Origin: a virus
Strand: one strand, 5' to 3'
DNA: 27,538 bases
IMG/VR virus record: IMGVR_UViG_3300046001_003510
Span: 1-27,538 of that record
Below are positions 1 through 7,963 of the stretch, piece after piece (the stretch's first letter is position 1; each line of letters opens with the position of its first letter). The translations under genes were made by a program, and so were the position numbers. The notes under the pieces are model-generated. The model worked only from the letters and a program-made list of their open reading frames with translations, did no database searches and had not been told where the DNA came from.

Positions 1-584
1 GACTTGCCAATATCAGCATCCAACAGATCTCTAGTACGATTGAGAGTAGCATCCAATTCAACTGTAGATTTAACTGCACCTAACGCATTGTTAGTTTGCA
101 CAGCTTGTTGAGTAAAAGATTGCAACTCAGTTACACGCTTACTAATAGTCTGTGCTGTAATACTAGCAGCTTCAGCTGATTTAACACTAGGCTCAAGATC
201 AAACTGTGCTGCTACCCAGTTGATAGGATCATCTAAGAATCTAGCATTGACATTTGATTCCACTCGCTTAGCTGCTTGGATAGAGTTATCAGCAGCAACT
301 CTTAATGCTTTACCATAATTAGTGATAGCCTCAGTACTATCGTTCATATTAGTACCTACAGCACTAGCAGCAGCGAAGTTGTTCTGAGCAGTTTTCTGTT
401 GACGAAGTAACTCACCCTGTTGCATAAGCACAGAGTTATCTTTAGCAGCCTCCATTGACTTGATAACATCAACAGAGGTTCTTCTTTCCTCAGCTTGTAT
501 GGACTTTACAACTTCACTGTTCTGTTTGATCTCAGTGTTACGTCTATCCAACAATCTCATCAACTCATCATTATCAATAGTCAT
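1..584 (-). CDS. Coiled-coil virion-type protein, C-terminus cut by window edge
   Basis: The reverse strand is open from an ATG at 584 to the window edge, giving the first 194 residues of a longer protein. It starts MTIDNDELMRLLDRRNTEI and is rich in Ala, Gln, Asn, Ser and charged residues with no Cys, consistent with long helices or coiled coil (for example residues 30-75, EERRTSVDVIKSMEAAKDNS). The start lies one base after the stop of the 998-aa gene and has the ribosome-binding block TAGGGGAATA five bases before the ATG's neighbour, as two other virion genes here do. I see no catalytic motif. From its place after the tail and lysis genes I infer an internal virion (ejection) protein, as podoviruses often carry large helical ones near the end of the late operon. 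The function is not established from sequence. Confidence 0.75.
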   Translation of the reverse strand, partial: MTIDNDELMRLLDRRNTEIKQNSEVVKSIQAEERRTSVDVIKSMEAAKDNSVLMQQGELLRQQKTAQNNFAAASAVGTNMNDSTEAITNYGKALRVAADNSIQAAKRVESNVNARFLDDPINWVAAQFDLEPSVKSAEAASITAQTISKRVTELQSFTQQAVQTNNALGAVKSTVELDATLNRTRDLLDADIGK

Positions 585-585
585 T

Positions 586-3582
586 TTATTCCCCTAACAT
601 AGATGGGTTAAATTCGAATTTTCTAGCAACAGTCTTAGCAATTACCCAGCACAATGATCTGCCAGTATAGTACACTGCGTGATCAATGAATGATGGTGCC
701 AAGTAGTGACCAGCAGGGAAAGCAGCAATGTGTTTAACAGCAGCTGTAACTATGAACTTAAGCACACGACTCACTACACTAGATGGATGTTTTCTCATGT
801 ACTTAACTGCAGGCACCGCCCAGATATAATATCCAGCACGTTCTTTCATACTATAGAACTGGAAGTTCACATGACTCTGGCGATGCAATCTCAAGTCCAT
901 CTTACCTTGTGCAAGGAGTTCAGTGCACAAGATAGTACCACCTTTAGCTTTAGTAGCAGTAGCTTGTGTCTGTTGTTGCTGGTTAGATGTTGCAGTCTGG
1001 AACAGATCAGTTGTAACCTCACCCTTGTTATTAGTGGCAGTGGACTGGCTAGCACCGATAGTATTAGTACCTGCACTAGTTGTGGAACTTGCACCAATGT
1101 TCTGAGTAGACTCACCTGATGTGCTGCTAGACTGGCTACTTGTAGAACCACCAATATTCTGAGTGTTGCTAGTAAGTCCAACAGATCCACCAATGTTTTG
1201 ATAGTTAGTGGAGCCACCAATGAGTTGAGTTACATCCACACCACCAATGTTCTGCACACTACTGGAAGCACCTGTTACTTGGCTAGAGTTAGATCCACCA
1301 ATAGACTGGTTAGTAGTAGAGCCACCGATATTCTGAGTACTATTAGTTGCACCAATCAGTTGCTCACTAATGGTCTTACCAACAGTAGTTGTAGAGTCAG
1401 AGCCACCGATGTTTTGATACCCACTAGTAGCACCAATGTTCTGTGTATTTGTGGAGCCACCAATGTTCTGAGTACCAGTCTGTGAAGTAGTGCTAGCACC
1501 AACTTTACTTGTGCCTTGAGTAGCACCAATGTTCTGAGTGCTAGTTGTTGACCCAATGTTTTGAGTGCTATTGATAGCTCCCAAGTTTTGAGTAGTACTA
1601 GAGCCACCAATATTTTGAGTGCTAGTATTACCACCGATGAGTTGAGTAGTCTCACTTGCGCCAATGTTTTGTGTGCTAGTATTGCCACCAATATTCTGTG
1701 TACTGCTAGTACCACCGATATTTTGAGTACTTGTACTTCCACCGATATTCTGGGTACTAGTGCTTCCACCAATATTTTGATAGTTGGAAGTAGCACCAAT
1801 GTTTTGAGTTGTATTGGTTGCACCGATGTTCTGAGTTGTAGTACTACCACCAATTAACTGTTGAGTCTCTACATCACCAAGAGTGTTAGTAGTCTTTGCT
1901 CCACCAATCTTCTGGGAAGTAGTACTACCGCCGATAGCTTGTGAACTTGTAGATCCACCAACTGTGCTAGTACCACTTGTAGCACCAATGTTAGTAACTT
2001 GGTTGCCACTGCTTGTGCTGGTACTGCCACCGATGTTAGTTGTGGAGTTATTGAAGCCACTAGTAGCACCGATGTTTTGGATGTTATTAACAGCTGCAAT
2101 ATTCTCAACTCTAGTGTTAGTGCTACCTGATGTTGTGCCACCAATAGTATTAACTGTAGCAGCGCCACGAACAGCAACCTCACCAGCAGTACGAGCTATC
2201 AGATCATTCACAAGCAATGTCTTAGCTGAGGAGTTGTAACCACCACTGGCATTAGCGCCACTAGTAACTGCCTGCAAGCCTTTGTTACCTTCAAGGATCT
2301 GAGCCACCAATCTATCAGTAGCAGTCTGAGTCAGCATTGTTTGTGACACATCAGTTCTACCACTAGTGAATGCACTGTTAATATCAGTAGTTGTGTTCTG
2401 TCTGGCTTCAGTGGTGCTAGTGTTCTGTGACGCCGCAGTACCAGTGCTGCCAGTTTGAGTGTTAACCGAGCCAGAGTTTACAGTTGTATTGTTTTGCGCG
2501 GTATTATTCTGGGAGGCTGCGGTTGCATTAGTGTTGGTGGAACCAGAGTTAGTAGTAACGTTATTGCTACCGCTGTTAATGAGTTCATTAAGACTCCCTG
2601 AAGTTTCGCTTGTGTTAGTAGAACCCAGCACCTTGTTGACATTAACACTGCCACTATTGATACTAGTATTTTGTGAAGCAGCTGTGCCTGTAGTATTTAC
2701 GGACGCAGCAGTGCCCCCAGTATTCTGGGAACCTGAATTGACATTGGTGTTAGTACTGCCACTGTTACTTGTAGTATTAGTGGAGCCTGCTGTGTTCATA
2801 GTGTTGACACTGCCACTGTTCACATTGGTGTTAGTGCTACCAGCAGTGCTGCTTACATTTGTGCTACCACTGTTGACATTAACATTCTGAGAGCCACTGT
2901 TGATGTTAGTATTGGTAGTTGCAGCTGTGTTGTTAGTGTTAACTCCACCACTGTTAGTGTTAGTGTTCATACTTGCCAGCGTACTATTGACAGTCTCATT
3001 GCCACTGTTAACAGTCATTGCGTCAGTAGTGTTAACAGAGCCACTATTAACATTAACATTCTGGGAAGCATTAGTGCCTGTAGTATTCTGTGAACCAGAA
3101 GTACTTGTAGTGTTAGTGCCACCAGAGTTAGTGGTAGTATTCAATCCACCTGAATTGCTGCTTGTGTTGACTGAGCCACTAGTAACAGACTGATTGTTTG
3201 AGCCAGAGTTACTAACATTGACAGTATTGCCTGAGTTGCTAACTGTGTTAGTAGACGCGCCTGTGGAAGTCTTGTTAGTACTGCCACTTGTGCCACCAGT
3301 GTTCTGTGATCCAGAGTTAAAGTTCAGCCCTGTGTTGGTATTAGCAGAACCAGAGTTGGTGGTAGTTGCATTGGTGTTAGAGTTGTTGCTAGTAGTGTTA
3401 GTTGACCCTGAGTTTAACACAGTGTTTACAGTACTATCTGTACGTCCTGAGTTAATAGTGTCAATAACATCAACCGAGCCACTCGTAGTTGAGTGACCTG
3501 TCTTGGTTTCCTCAGAACTACCAGACTGTTTCGAGTTGTTCTTATTGGCTTCTACTGATGCGCTAAGACCGAATAATGCCAT
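586..3582 (-). CDS. 998-aa virion protein with two arrays of nine-residue repeats
   Basis: Residues about 35-405 are an Asn/Ser/Thr/Gly array with unit [N/T]-[S/A]-[G/A]-S-x-N-[T/V]-x-x. Residues about 475-850 are a second array with unit [N/L]-I-G-[G/A]-x-x-x-T-Q. Between them (about 406-472) is a non-repetitive, probably globular segment containing GLQAVTSGANASGGYNSSAK and LLVNDLIARTAGEVA. The last about 118 residues (from ILCTELLAQG, through GYYIWAVPAVKYMR, to the end) are a Cys- and aromatic-containing hydrophobic domain. From memory, the middle and C-terminal segments resemble unnamed parts of large podovirus virion proteins; this needs a profile search. The gene sits between the lysis genes and a coiled-coil gene and starts MALFGLSASVEANKNN at 3582. 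Its low-complexity coding DNA creates many spurious ORFs on both strands. A structural, fibre- or solenoid-like role is inferred; enzymatic activity is not apparent. Confidence 0.85.
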   Translation of the reverse strand: MALFGLSASVEANKNNSKQSGSSEETKTGHSTTSGSVDVIDTINSGRTDSTVNTVLNSGSTNTTSNNSNTNATTTNSGSANTNTGLNFNSGSQNTGGTSGSTNKTSTGASTNTVSNSGNTVNVSNSGSNNQSVTSGSVNTSSNSGGLNTTTNSGGTNTTSTSGSQNTTGTNASQNVNVNSGSVNTTDAMTVNSGNETVNSTLASMNTNTNSGGVNTNNTAATTNTNINSGSQNVNVNSGSTNVSSTAGSTNTNVNSGSVNTMNTAGSTNTTSNSGSTNTNVNSGSQNTGGTAASVNTTGTAASQNTSINSGSVNVNKVLGSTNTSETSGSLNELINSGSNNVTTNSGSTNTNATAASQNNTAQNNTTVNSGSVNTQTGSTGTAASQNTSTTEARQNTTTDINSAFTSGRTDVSQTMLTQTATDRLVAQILEGNKGLQAVTSGANASGGYNSSAKTLLVNDLIARTAGEVAVRGAATVNTIGGTTSGSTNTRVENIAAVNNIQNIGATSGFNNSTTNIGGSTSTSSGNQVTNIGATSGTSTVGGSTSSQAIGGSTTSQKIGGAKTTNTLGDVETQQLIGGSTTTQNIGATNTTQNIGATSNYQNIGGSTSTQNIGGSTSTQNIGGTSSTQNIGGNTSTQNIGASETTQLIGGNTSTQNIGGSSTTQNLGAINSTQNIGSTTSTQNIGATQGTSKVGASTTSQTGTQNIGGSTNTQNIGATSGYQNIGGSDSTTTVGKTISEQLIGATNSTQNIGGSTTNQSIGGSNSSQVTGASSSVQNIGGVDVTQLIGGSTNYQNIGGSVGLTSNTQNIGGSTSSQSSSTSGESTQNIGASSTTSAGTNTIGASQSTATNNKGEVTTDLFQTATSNQQQQTQATATKAKGGTILCTELLAQGKMDLRLHRQSHVNFQFYSMKERAGYYIWAVPAVKYMRKHPSSVVSRVLKFIVTAAVKHIAAFPAGHYLAPSFIDHAVYYTGRSLCWVIAKTVARKFEFNPSMLGE
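587..596 (-). promoter_or_regulatory. Ribosome-binding block TAGGGGAATA before the left-edge gene
   Basis: The block TAGGGGAATA stands two bases before the ATG at 584. The identical ten bases with the identical spacing occur before the genes starting at 7963 and 10673. The stop codon of the 998-aa gene is formed inside and just after the block, so translation of the two genes is probably coupled. Confidence 0.6.
1033..2160 (-). repeat. Tandem 27-bp coding repeat, consensus unit NIGGSTSTQ
   Basis: This stretch encodes residues about 475-850 of the 998-aa protein. The dipeptide I/V/L-G recurs every nine residues (27 bases). From residue 540 to 693 there are 17 consecutive steps of exactly nine, and from 706 to 796 ten more. 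The few breaks are mostly 13 residues (nine plus four). Base-level copies are diverged in the third codon position, so the array is old or under selection for the protein, not a fresh expansion. Confidence 0.9.
2368..3480 (-). repeat. Tandem 27-bp coding repeat, consensus unit NSGSTNTNV
   Basis: This stretch encodes residues about 35-405 of the 998-aa protein. The unit [N/T]-[S/A]-[G/A]-S-x-N recurs at steps of exactly nine residues from 89 to 179 (ten steps) and from 192 to 354 (18 steps), with breaks of 13 or 15 residues. The period is the same as in the second array of the gene, but the consensus is different. TAAS and NSGS variants of the unit are interspersed. Confidence 0.9.
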
Positions 3583-3595
3583 GATGTGCTCCTAA

Positions 3596-4117
3596 TTATT
3601 TACTTCCATTGTTGACTGGTGGGATTAGTGGGTCTGCTTGCATCTTACCTCTGAAGAAGCTAGCGACACCTAATATACTACCCCAAGCAATCCATATAAA
3701 TTCTGGTACTACTGGTGGTGTTATCTTAAGCAAGGGTAATATGAAATAGCATCCGAAGATAGTAACACCAAATAGATAGCCATTGAATGGGCGCCAAGTG
3801 TAAGTAGCCCAATGCTCACTAGCTGCTTCTGCTTGCATAGTCTTGTTGACTTCCATAACTACTGAAGCATTCAAGGCTTCTATCTCAGCAAGGTGTTTGT
3901 ACCCTAACGCTAAGCAGTGAGCTTTGTATTCCATTTCAATCTTCTGGAGTTCTACAACCTTCTCAGGATTGCCAAGCATTCCAGATACAGTAGCAGTTAC
4001 AGCCTCAGGAGATACTCCTAACTTGGAGGCTACAAATCCTGCAACTCCTGCACCTAGTGGACCTCCTAATGCTGTACCTATCCAAGGCAGTACTGACTTA
4101 ATGATATCCATATTCAT
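3596..4117 (-). CDS. Holin-like protein (3TM / GTA holin type)
   Basis: I choose ATG 4117 (173 aa, MNMDIIKSVLPWIGTALGG) because AAGGAG lies seven bases upstream; a longer frame to 4153 has no such site. An N-terminal Gly/Ala-rich segment (about residues 8-35) is followed by a helical, charged stretch (about 55-100). Then comes TWRPFNGYLFG, leading into two hydrophobic segments (about 107-128 and 137-155). The RPFNGY-type turn before paired membrane helices is typical of the 'holin of 3 TMs, gene-transfer release' family as I know it. The role would be to permeabilise the inner membrane and release the endolysin at the end of infection. The gene starts one base after the stop of the preceding 102-aa gene, in a lysis cluster with an M15 peptidase. 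The family assignment is from motif memory. Confidence 0.7.
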   Translation of the reverse strand: MNMDIIKSVLPWIGTALGGPLGAGVAGFVASKLGVSPEAVTATVSGMLGNPEKVVELQKIEMEYKAHCLALGYKHLAEIEALNASVVMEVNKTMQAEAASEHWATYTWRPFNGYLFGVTIFGCYFILPLLKITPPVVPEFIWIAWGSILGVASFFRGKMQADPLIPPVNNGSK

Positions 4118-4118
4118 G

Positions 4119-4427
4119 TTACTTCTCCTTAGGCTTTGGTGTTTGCTCAACAATAGTTAACAGCTTGGTTAACATAACCAGCTGGTCTGTTTGCTTGCTA
4201 TTGATACTGTCAATCGTAGTCTTTATAACTTTATTCTCTTCTTGAATACGAGTGATCTTTTCATCCTGATTAGTATTGACGTTATCAATGCTGTTAAGTT
4301 TGATAGCACCAATGGCTACTAGCCCAAAGACCCATATAGCAGTCTTGGCTACTCCAATCCATTTAGTGATAGTATCAATGTTAGAGTTTCCAGCAGAGTC
4401 TAAAGTTATATGGGTTTTAGTAGTCAT
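4119..4427 (-). CDS. Single-TM coiled-coil protein of the lysis cluster (spanin-like?)
   Basis: This 102-aa protein has one hydrophobic segment at about residues 23-44 (WIGVAKTAIWVFGLVAIGAI). It is followed by a hydrophilic heptad-like stretch rich in Asn, Gln, Glu and Lys (about 50-95), ending in PKPKEK. That layout (short N-terminal tail, one membrane helix, helical C-terminal domain) fits an inner-membrane spanin. The position between endolysin and holin supports a lysis role, but I found no lipoprotein partner, so a minor holin or antiholin is equally possible. Oddly, no Shine-Dalgarno sequence is visible before the ATG. Only 14 bases separate it from the endolysin stop, so translation may depend on coupling. 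Confidence 0.6.
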   Translation of the reverse strand: MTTKTHITLDSAGNSNIDTITKWIGVAKTAIWVFGLVAIGAIKLNSIDNVNTNQDEKITRIQEENKVIKTTIDSINSKQTDQLVMLTKLLTIVEQTPKPKEK

Positions 4428-6958: not shown

Positions 6959-7963
6959 TTAAACAGAGAATACTTGGGAGTTTGCACCGACTTTAGTTAC
7001 AGTGTTAGTGCCATTGTTGGTACTTACTTCATACATAAAGCCATTGTAATTAGGAGTACTGCCAGATACAACTTCTCGGAATCCGAAGCTAGTATTACCA
7101 TTAGCAATGCACTGGTTAATACGAGAGTTCTGCACATCTCCTTCTAGGCGGAAACCATCCACAGCATTAGAGTTTGCAATACACCCTGATACTGTAACTC
7201 TTTCAGTAGTCTGTAACTGGAAGCCACTGAGAGTATTACTATTAGCTACGCAGCCAGTGATAGTTACATCAGTAATATTCTTCGTTCCAAGTCCTTTAAC
7301 TAAGAAGCCTTGTCCTGTGAGTCCTGTGCATTTGCAGTTAGTTACAATAACCACTGAAGCTGCACTACCTGCACTGGCTATATTCACTCCAACTCCTGGA
7401 CTTGCTGCCACATCACAGCGATTGATATCCAAGCAGTCCAGAGTAATAGATCCACCTTGCTGGATAGTTATACCAGAGCCAGTAAAGGAAGTAATTCTGC
7501 ATGATTGTACCAGTACCTTAGACAAGGAAGCACCTGTGATATTGATACTATCACCTTTAGTGTTCTGGATAAGTACATCCACTAGAGAGCTAGAGATGGA
7601 ATTAACCATGTAGACTGAGTGGAATCCACTGCCTACTTGATTGTTCTTATTACCATCAATGCATAGATCTCGTAAGTGGGAATCAGACCCCATAGTCAGA
7701 AAGATAGAGTTAGTAAGGGGCTTTAACTTAAGAATACTCAAGTCCCCTGCACCAAAGATAATGGCGTTGGCAGGAACAGTAATAGCTCCCATAATGAATG
7801 TACCTACTGGGATAAACACAGGTAAGCCTGTACCTAGGGCAGTTACCATAGCCGCAGTATTATCTGTTACTCCATCACCTGCAGCACCAGCAATATCTAG
7901 CAAACTTACAAAGCCTAGATTATCCTGTGTGGCAAATGTTGAGCCTTTAACTTTAGTTACCAT
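6959..7963 (-). CDS. Tailspike-like right-handed beta-helix protein
   Basis: This 334-aa protein starts with a short adaptor segment followed by a pectate-lyase-type entry: GAAGDGVTDNTAAMVTAL (about residues 27-44), then LPVFIPVGTFIMGAITVP. From about residue 100 to 300 there are successive coils with Asn/Gly/Thr stacks such as DVTITGCVANSNTLSGFQLQ and ERVTVSGCIANSNAVDGFRL. These are the repeating rungs of a parallel beta-helix, as in phage tailspikes and capsule depolymerases. I cannot assign catalytic residues, so receptor binding without hydrolysis is possible. It is short for a tailspike. The ribosome-binding block TAGGGGAATA lies two bases before the ATG. Confidence 0.78.
   Translation of the reverse strand: MVTKVKGSTFATQDNLGFVSLLDIAGAAGDGVTDNTAAMVTALGTGLPVFIPVGTFIMGAITVPANAIIFGAGDLSILKLKPLTNSIFLTMGSDSHLRDLCIDGNKNNQVGSGFHSVYMVNSISSSLVDVLIQNTKGDSINITGASLSKVLVQSCRITSFTGSGITIQQGGSITLDCLDINRCDVAASPGVGVNIASAGSAASVVIVTNCKCTGLTGQGFLVKGLGTKNITDVTITGCVANSNTLSGFQLQTTERVTVSGCIANSNAVDGFRLEGDVQNSRINQCIANGNTSFGFREVVSGSTPNYNGFMYEVSTNNGTNTVTKVGANSQVFSV

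Follow-up and report, generated by a model that had tools for sequence, protein, structure and literature searches.

Two long arrays with the same nine-residue period and different consensus make up most of a 998-aa open reading frame on the minus strand of the viral contig IMGVR_UViG_3300046001_003510, and they raise the question of whether they are two repeat modules or parts of one structure, and what such a protein would do for the phage. The window considered here is the whole stretch of 27,538 nucleotides, in which the ORF starts with an ATG and occupies positions 586–3582. A second IMG/VR contig (IMGVR_UViG_3300046002_002841, 43,001 bp) carries the same gene at unchanged length, with 2 mismatches in 11,582 shared bp. 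The gene, its parts and its neighbours are as follows.

586–3582, minus strand: coding sequence of the 998-aa repeat protein (P0001), an ORF found as the same gene on contig IMGVR_UViG_3300046002_002841
3484–3582, minus strand: N-terminal segment, residues 1–33, without the unit pattern (from reading the sequence)
2356–3483, minus strand: arm I, residues 34–409, 38 levels of the N-S-G-S-x-N-T type (from unit anchors)
2344–2355, minus strand: neck strand, residues 410–413, predicted beta (AlphaFold2, the same in two runs, modest pLDDT)
2167–2328, minus strand: core, a predicted helical hairpin, residues 419–472, kept in relatives (AlphaFold2 and relatives)
2146–2157, minus strand: neck strand, residues 476–479, predicted beta partner of 410–413 (410 + 479 = 889; AlphaFold2)
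1018–2145, minus strand: arm II, residues 480–855, 38 levels of the N-I-G-G-S-T-S-T-Q type, mirror-spaced to arm I (from unit anchors)
625–933, minus strand: C-terminal helical domain, residues 884–986, the 'CTEL' module, predicted with pLDDT of about 60–85 (AlphaFold2 and comparison)
1–584, minus strand: start of the next late gene, second of a trio (559 aa on the longer contig)
3596–4153, minus strand: upstream neighbour, a 3TM holin (Pfam GTA_holin_3TM, 4e-8)

The period itself is not in doubt. Identity at lag 9 is 0.37 in array I versus 0.165 in shuffles (z 10.4) and 0.38 versus 0.137 in array II (z 13.7), which confirms the preliminary description of two period-nine arrays of different consensus around a non-repetitive segment, the latter covering about residues 410–479 (∼70 residues). 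Array I follows the consensus N/T-S/A-G-S-x-N-T-x-x and array II N-I-G-G/A-S/T-x-S/T-T-Q; both arms are rich in Ser, Thr, Asn and Gly, with few alanines and neither proline nor His. In array I, the exact nine-residue runs extend over 10 and 18 steps, and in array II over 18 and 10, so that of the run lengths first reported (10, 18, 17 and 10) only the 17 has to be corrected, to 18. The breaks, then described as mostly 13 or 15, do include these sizes, and also 19 and, at the far end, 11. Long ORFs on other frames of the arrays, for example 1198–1485 (+) and 1356–1853 (−), are spurious and result from the repeat composition.

The preliminary description knew no named repeat family with either consensus, and searches of Pfam, PHROG, NCBIfam and PDB sequences and with Foldseek bear this out. 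The whole protein has no match at E ≤ 1 in Pfam (0 families), PHROGs or NCBIfam, array I has none in the PDB sequence search, and the AlphaFold model has none in Foldseek at E ≤ 0.001. Likewise, tblastn of the full protein and of the cores against phage records, and a search of genome contigs with the core, returned no match, while an IMG/VR pattern search for array II returned only this phage. A PDB match of array II to a LIM-domain protein (4.7e-6) is absent with the full-length query and is probably compositional. The RTX nonapeptide beta-roll also has a nine-residue period with a Gly pair, in a GGxGxDxUx consensus with a calcium motif; however, the GGxGxD calcium motif is absent from both consensus sequences found here, NSGSxNT and NIGG/ASTSTQ.

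While the first reading of the arrays captured their periodicity, it overlooked that the breaks are placed in mirror-image order about the core. Counted outward from the core, the steps in both arms are 15, 9, 13, 15, 9×18, 13, 9×10, 13, 19, 13 and then 11. A blind list of anchors, obtained with a simple pattern and drawn up before the idea of pairing, reads 24, 13, 15, 9×18, 13, 9×10, 13, 19, 13 in array I from the core to the N-terminus (the 13 after 9×18 was printed as 7+6, owing to one false anchor) and 9, 13, 15, 9×18, 13, 9×10, 13, 19, 13 in array II from the core to the C-terminus. A unit-profile scan recovers the blind anchors, splits the 24 of array I into 15+9, gives array II a first step of 15 and places one more step, of 11, at the far end of each arm. 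The 34 blind steps are identical in mirror order, which is true of 1 in 40,347,120 orders of the same multiset; with the two core-proximal steps, before the extra 11 is added, the 36 steps are again identical (1 in 876,506,400). At level k, an arm I unit at residue a corresponds to an arm II unit at residue 887−a. All step sizes are odd, and the insertions therefore comprise even numbers of residues. Such spacing supports the regular fold with fixed-size insertions that had been suggested, and speaks against the accompanying idea that four extra residues are looped out: the other arm has an equal insertion at the same level, so both strands are lengthened together.

Our data show that residues of the two arms covary in the same mirror register only. 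Arm I triplets ending in GS face a position-4 G of arm II in 18 of 21 cases, and other triplets face A or another residue in 14 of 16 (18/3 versus 2/14, Fisher P = 1.1e-5), while the same test in 16 shifted registers gives P ≥ 0.16. In terms of mutual information, the strongest register is the antiparallel diagonal i+j=889 (mean z 2.9, compared with 0.87 for the best other register). When the order of arm II units was permuted, none of 4000 permutations reached the observed total (z=7.0); without the Gly corner z is 4.8, and for the regular nine-runs only it is 6.1. Charges are rare in the arms, and three opposite pairs, E196–K693, K317–E572 and E326–K563, satisfy i+j=889 exactly, and like charges are nowhere paired in this register. 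Of 380 registers, only 4 have two or more opposite-charge pairs, and 887, 889 and 891 are among them. The commonest pairs over 37 levels are G–G (28), N–Q (27) and S–I (26), with D–N replacing N–Q at both ends. Both ends also share a cap, SGRTD opposite NTIG (residues 45–49/840–842 and 407–411/478–480).

This covariation is drawn from one protein, and two short-armed relatives, which share ancestry with it near the core, serve as a check. L014 and L015 (343 and 350 aa, with 59 and 64% identity in the core) have arms of the same unit types, with three levels and a spacing of 18, 15 on either side of the core. The pair table learnt on the 998-aa protein selects the expected registers in them, 227 and 235 (z 4.6 and 5.4), which makes them a partly independent check, given the common ancestry. 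Because mirror spacing and mirror-register covariation coincide, the arms are complementary halves of one structure: arm I and arm II almost certainly pair with each other, antiparallel, in one register, level by level.

AlphaFold2 was run twice, with 10 and 11 aligned sequences. Both runs place a single strand pair, 410–413/476–479, at the neck of the helical hairpin with modest pLDDT; it is antiparallel with the sum 889, which is the register given, independently, by the covariation. The monomer model that had been recommended as a check thus yields the neck pair at 889 and the helical core, but the arms have pLDDT below 50 and no strands, a failure that we attribute to the lack of relatives. 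A beta state of the arms is nonetheless likely from the odd spacings, the composition and the antiparallel covariation; odd steps and even insertions fit the alternation of residues along a strand. Most simply, the protein would be a long antiparallel beta-ribbon rod with the helical hairpin at the tip and the helical C-terminal domain at the base. Fully extended, at about 0.33 nm per residue, the rod would reach at most about 120 nm, and coiling of the ribbon at the Gly corners would make it much shorter.

As to what such a rod would be for, the gene neighbourhood is informative. The 998-aa gene is the first of a trio that follows the lysis genes (998, 559 and 1668 aa), and relatives have the order tail genes, endopeptidase, holin, core protein, a protein of ∼550–670 aa and, on contigs of sufficient length, a giant of ∼1650 aa. 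This giant is related to PaP2 gp25 (phrog_16165, 6e-33). In this phage its gene lies at the opposite, left end of the longer contig (IMGVR_UViG_3300046002_002841, 8–4999), and ∼40 codons from its start are repeated at the right-hand end (42878–42997), so this contig is probably a complete or near-complete circularly permuted genome. In PaMx41 the same slot and its neighbours, three slots in all, are labelled 'structural protein'. The protein had been called a virion protein from the outset, and gene position and relatives make a place in the virion very probable.

The ejection trios of T7 (gp14-15-16) and P22 (gp7-20-16) are also three adjacent late genes, normally with the smallest first and the giant last (PMC8954989), and the present trio and those of the relatives likewise end in a giant. 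In contrast to T7 gp14 and P22 gp7, the first protein here has 998 aa rather than about 200, and no homology to them can be recognised in its core. T7 gp14-like proteins range from 181 to 240 aa, with a variation of less than 30% (PMC8954989). Comparison of the core with named DNA ejection proteins (hhalign, phrog_4287-type) gave a probability under 3%, which is not significant, and profile comparison with PaP2-type and VS-ABTNL-3-type proteins aligned one and the same small motif, again without significance. For this reason the ejection role is argued from position, and on that basis we moderately favour it. Known occupants of the slot, PaP2 gp23 and PaMx41 gp22 (phrog_16266), similarly precede virion structural and giant genes and have S/T/N/G-rich flanks about a central segment, but at 305 aa they lack nine-residue arrays and a 'CTEL' domain, and no mirror register is detectable in them.

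The core is matched by 14 IMG/VR loci, namely this phage, the two short-armed relatives and eleven others; those of the eleven that were read have the core without long arms and at most a short neck. No clear mirror register was seen in armless relatives or in the PaP2, Tiera and EBPR proteins. One locus, L098 (5824–6666), has flanks rich in S/T/N/Q on either side of the core, with no clear nine-residue units or mirror register, and is possibly an intermediate form.

Taken together, we prefer to read the protein as an out-and-back paired rod that most likely serves an uncultured short-tailed phage as its first ejection-type virion protein, and give this a probability of about 0.65. Arm I (34–409) would lead away from the base, hairpin 419–472 would form the tip, and arm II (480–855) would return antiparallel, placing residue i beside 889−i over 38 levels, with the C-terminal helical domain (884–986) and both termini at the base. 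The two arrays would differ as the complementary strands of one ribbon, with G–G, S–I and N–Q opposite each other and G/A on one strand tuned to G/A and S/T on the other. Rod length would then be set by the number of paired units, any insertion in one arm being matched in the other. Delivered on infection, the protein could form or guide the outer part of an envelope conduit and reach further into or across the envelope. A more speculative version, which we regard as improbable, is that hairpins of several ejected subunits (∼375 residues per arm) zip side by side into a very long beta-walled tube or rod, which would extend the stubby tail across the envelope by a length counted in paired nine-residue units; the two complementary but non-identical arrays would then define a new repeat class.

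In phage T4, the chain of gp37 turns back at the tip. The protein is a needle of antiparallel strands that carries the tip (PMC9659904), and its trimer coordinates seven iron ions along the needle (PMC6957217). The protein described here resembles it in its probable out-and-back antiparallel strands with the tip at the turn, as judged indirectly from mirror-register covariation, and is unlike the iron-containing trimer in that its arms have no His, are built of nine-residue units, which gp37 itself lacks, and are encoded at another gene position. In the streptococcal antigen I/II stalk (SpaP, SspB, BspA), two different repeat regions flanking the tip domain intertwine intramolecularly; the SpaP stalk exceeds 50 nm and BspA has an asparagine seam (PMC7732690). 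Here too, different repeats on either side of a tip would pair into a long stalk. However, antigen I/II is a cell-wall adhesin that combines an alanine-rich alpha helix with a polyproline helix, in contrast to proline-free nine-residue units in a phage, and no sequence match between the two was found. Paired stalks of the out-and-back or intertwined kind are thus already known (antigen I/II, PMC7732690; T4 gp37, PMC9659904), while the libraries searched contain no match to a stalk of two complementary nine-residue arrays of this consensus.

The main rival is a surface needle of the T4 gp37 kind, that is, the same paired rod outside the virion as a fibre or tail needle, oligomeric (for example a trimer of hairpins with six strands) and presenting the helical tip to the host. 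T4 gp37, a six-stranded antiparallel needle of a phage (PMC9659904), is its precedent; a long rod is suited to outward reach, related C-terminal modules end collagen-like fibre proteins of other phages (L083, L086), and some PaP2 relatives have the slot annotated as 'hemagglutinin'. Nevertheless, the gene stands directly before the 560-aa and giant genes and at a distance from the phage's own spike-like gene (beta-helix/pectate-lyase-like, 6959–7963), the arms have no His metal motif, and most core-bearing relatives have no rod at all. We consider a surface location possible, at roughly one chance in four.

Much less credit is due to the view that the arms are disordered S/T/N/G/Q-rich tethers around a folded core, with periodicity as a by-product of repeat duplication. 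It accords with the low-complexity composition, with AlphaFold2 pLDDT below 50 in the arms and with the S/T/N-rich flanks of same-slot proteins of PaP2, Tiera and EBPR podovirus 3, but it leaves mirror spacing and mirror-register covariation unaccounted for. Moreover, the arrays are not recent DNA repeats. TRF reports the main array as 27-bp units that match at only 66%, conserved Ser positions mix AGY and TCN codons, and synonymous differences between units are near saturation (pS 0.72–0.79 in arm I and 0.66–0.71 in arm II), with non-synonymous differences about half as frequent. Near units are no more alike than far ones, contrary to what recent duplication predicts. Since residues are conserved despite saturated synonymous sites, it is the amino-acid pattern that is under selection.

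Equally hard to sustain is the suggestion that each arm is a beta-solenoid of its own, with the mirror spacing due to lateral packing of the two. Some beta-solenoids do have a nine-residue period with Gly corners and N/Q columns, and all three features are present in the consensus here. Against this, neighbouring units of one arm show no in-register covariation at lags 1–7, coil stacking sought as covariation at other registers or within arms was not seen, and the signal between the arms follows a single antiparallel diagonal, one residue after another. A reading as two separate modules, or as one solenoid per array, accordingly gives way to arrays that pair as complementary halves. Finally, an inverted repeat in the nucleic acid (a DNA or RNA hairpin) would also yield a mirror order, with no tool result in its favour, and is refuted as its cause by base complementarity, which in the mirror register does not exceed that of other registers of the same codon phase and is maximal at an unrelated offset.

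The paired rod shows that two arrays of seemingly separate repeat families can form the two strands of a single structure, and that one metagenomic sequence is enough to demonstrate such pairing, through mirror spacing and covariation between the arms. In this fibrous architecture, length can be read from the number of levels, which is 3 in two relatives and 38 here. The same test can be applied to other low-complexity phage proteins and offers a way to approach those virion proteins of short-tailed phages that are least understood.

The C-terminal domain has a distribution of its own. The helical 'CTEL...GYxxWAxPxV' module (625–933, minus strand; residues 884–986) is also found at NC_021864.1 38808–39122 and in L083, L086, L018 and L090, as a mobile end piece on HMO-2011 gp49, collagen-like fibres and tape-measure-like proteins; among the carriers scanned, the module had no Pfam match. 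Two core-bearing relatives, L103 (5294–7234) and L105 (5842–7494), end in a SDGEFVLSADTV-type domain instead of CTEL. In HMO-2011 gp49 a domain of the SDGEFVLSADTV type (SEGEFVMPADVV) is N-terminal, and CTEL is C-terminal.
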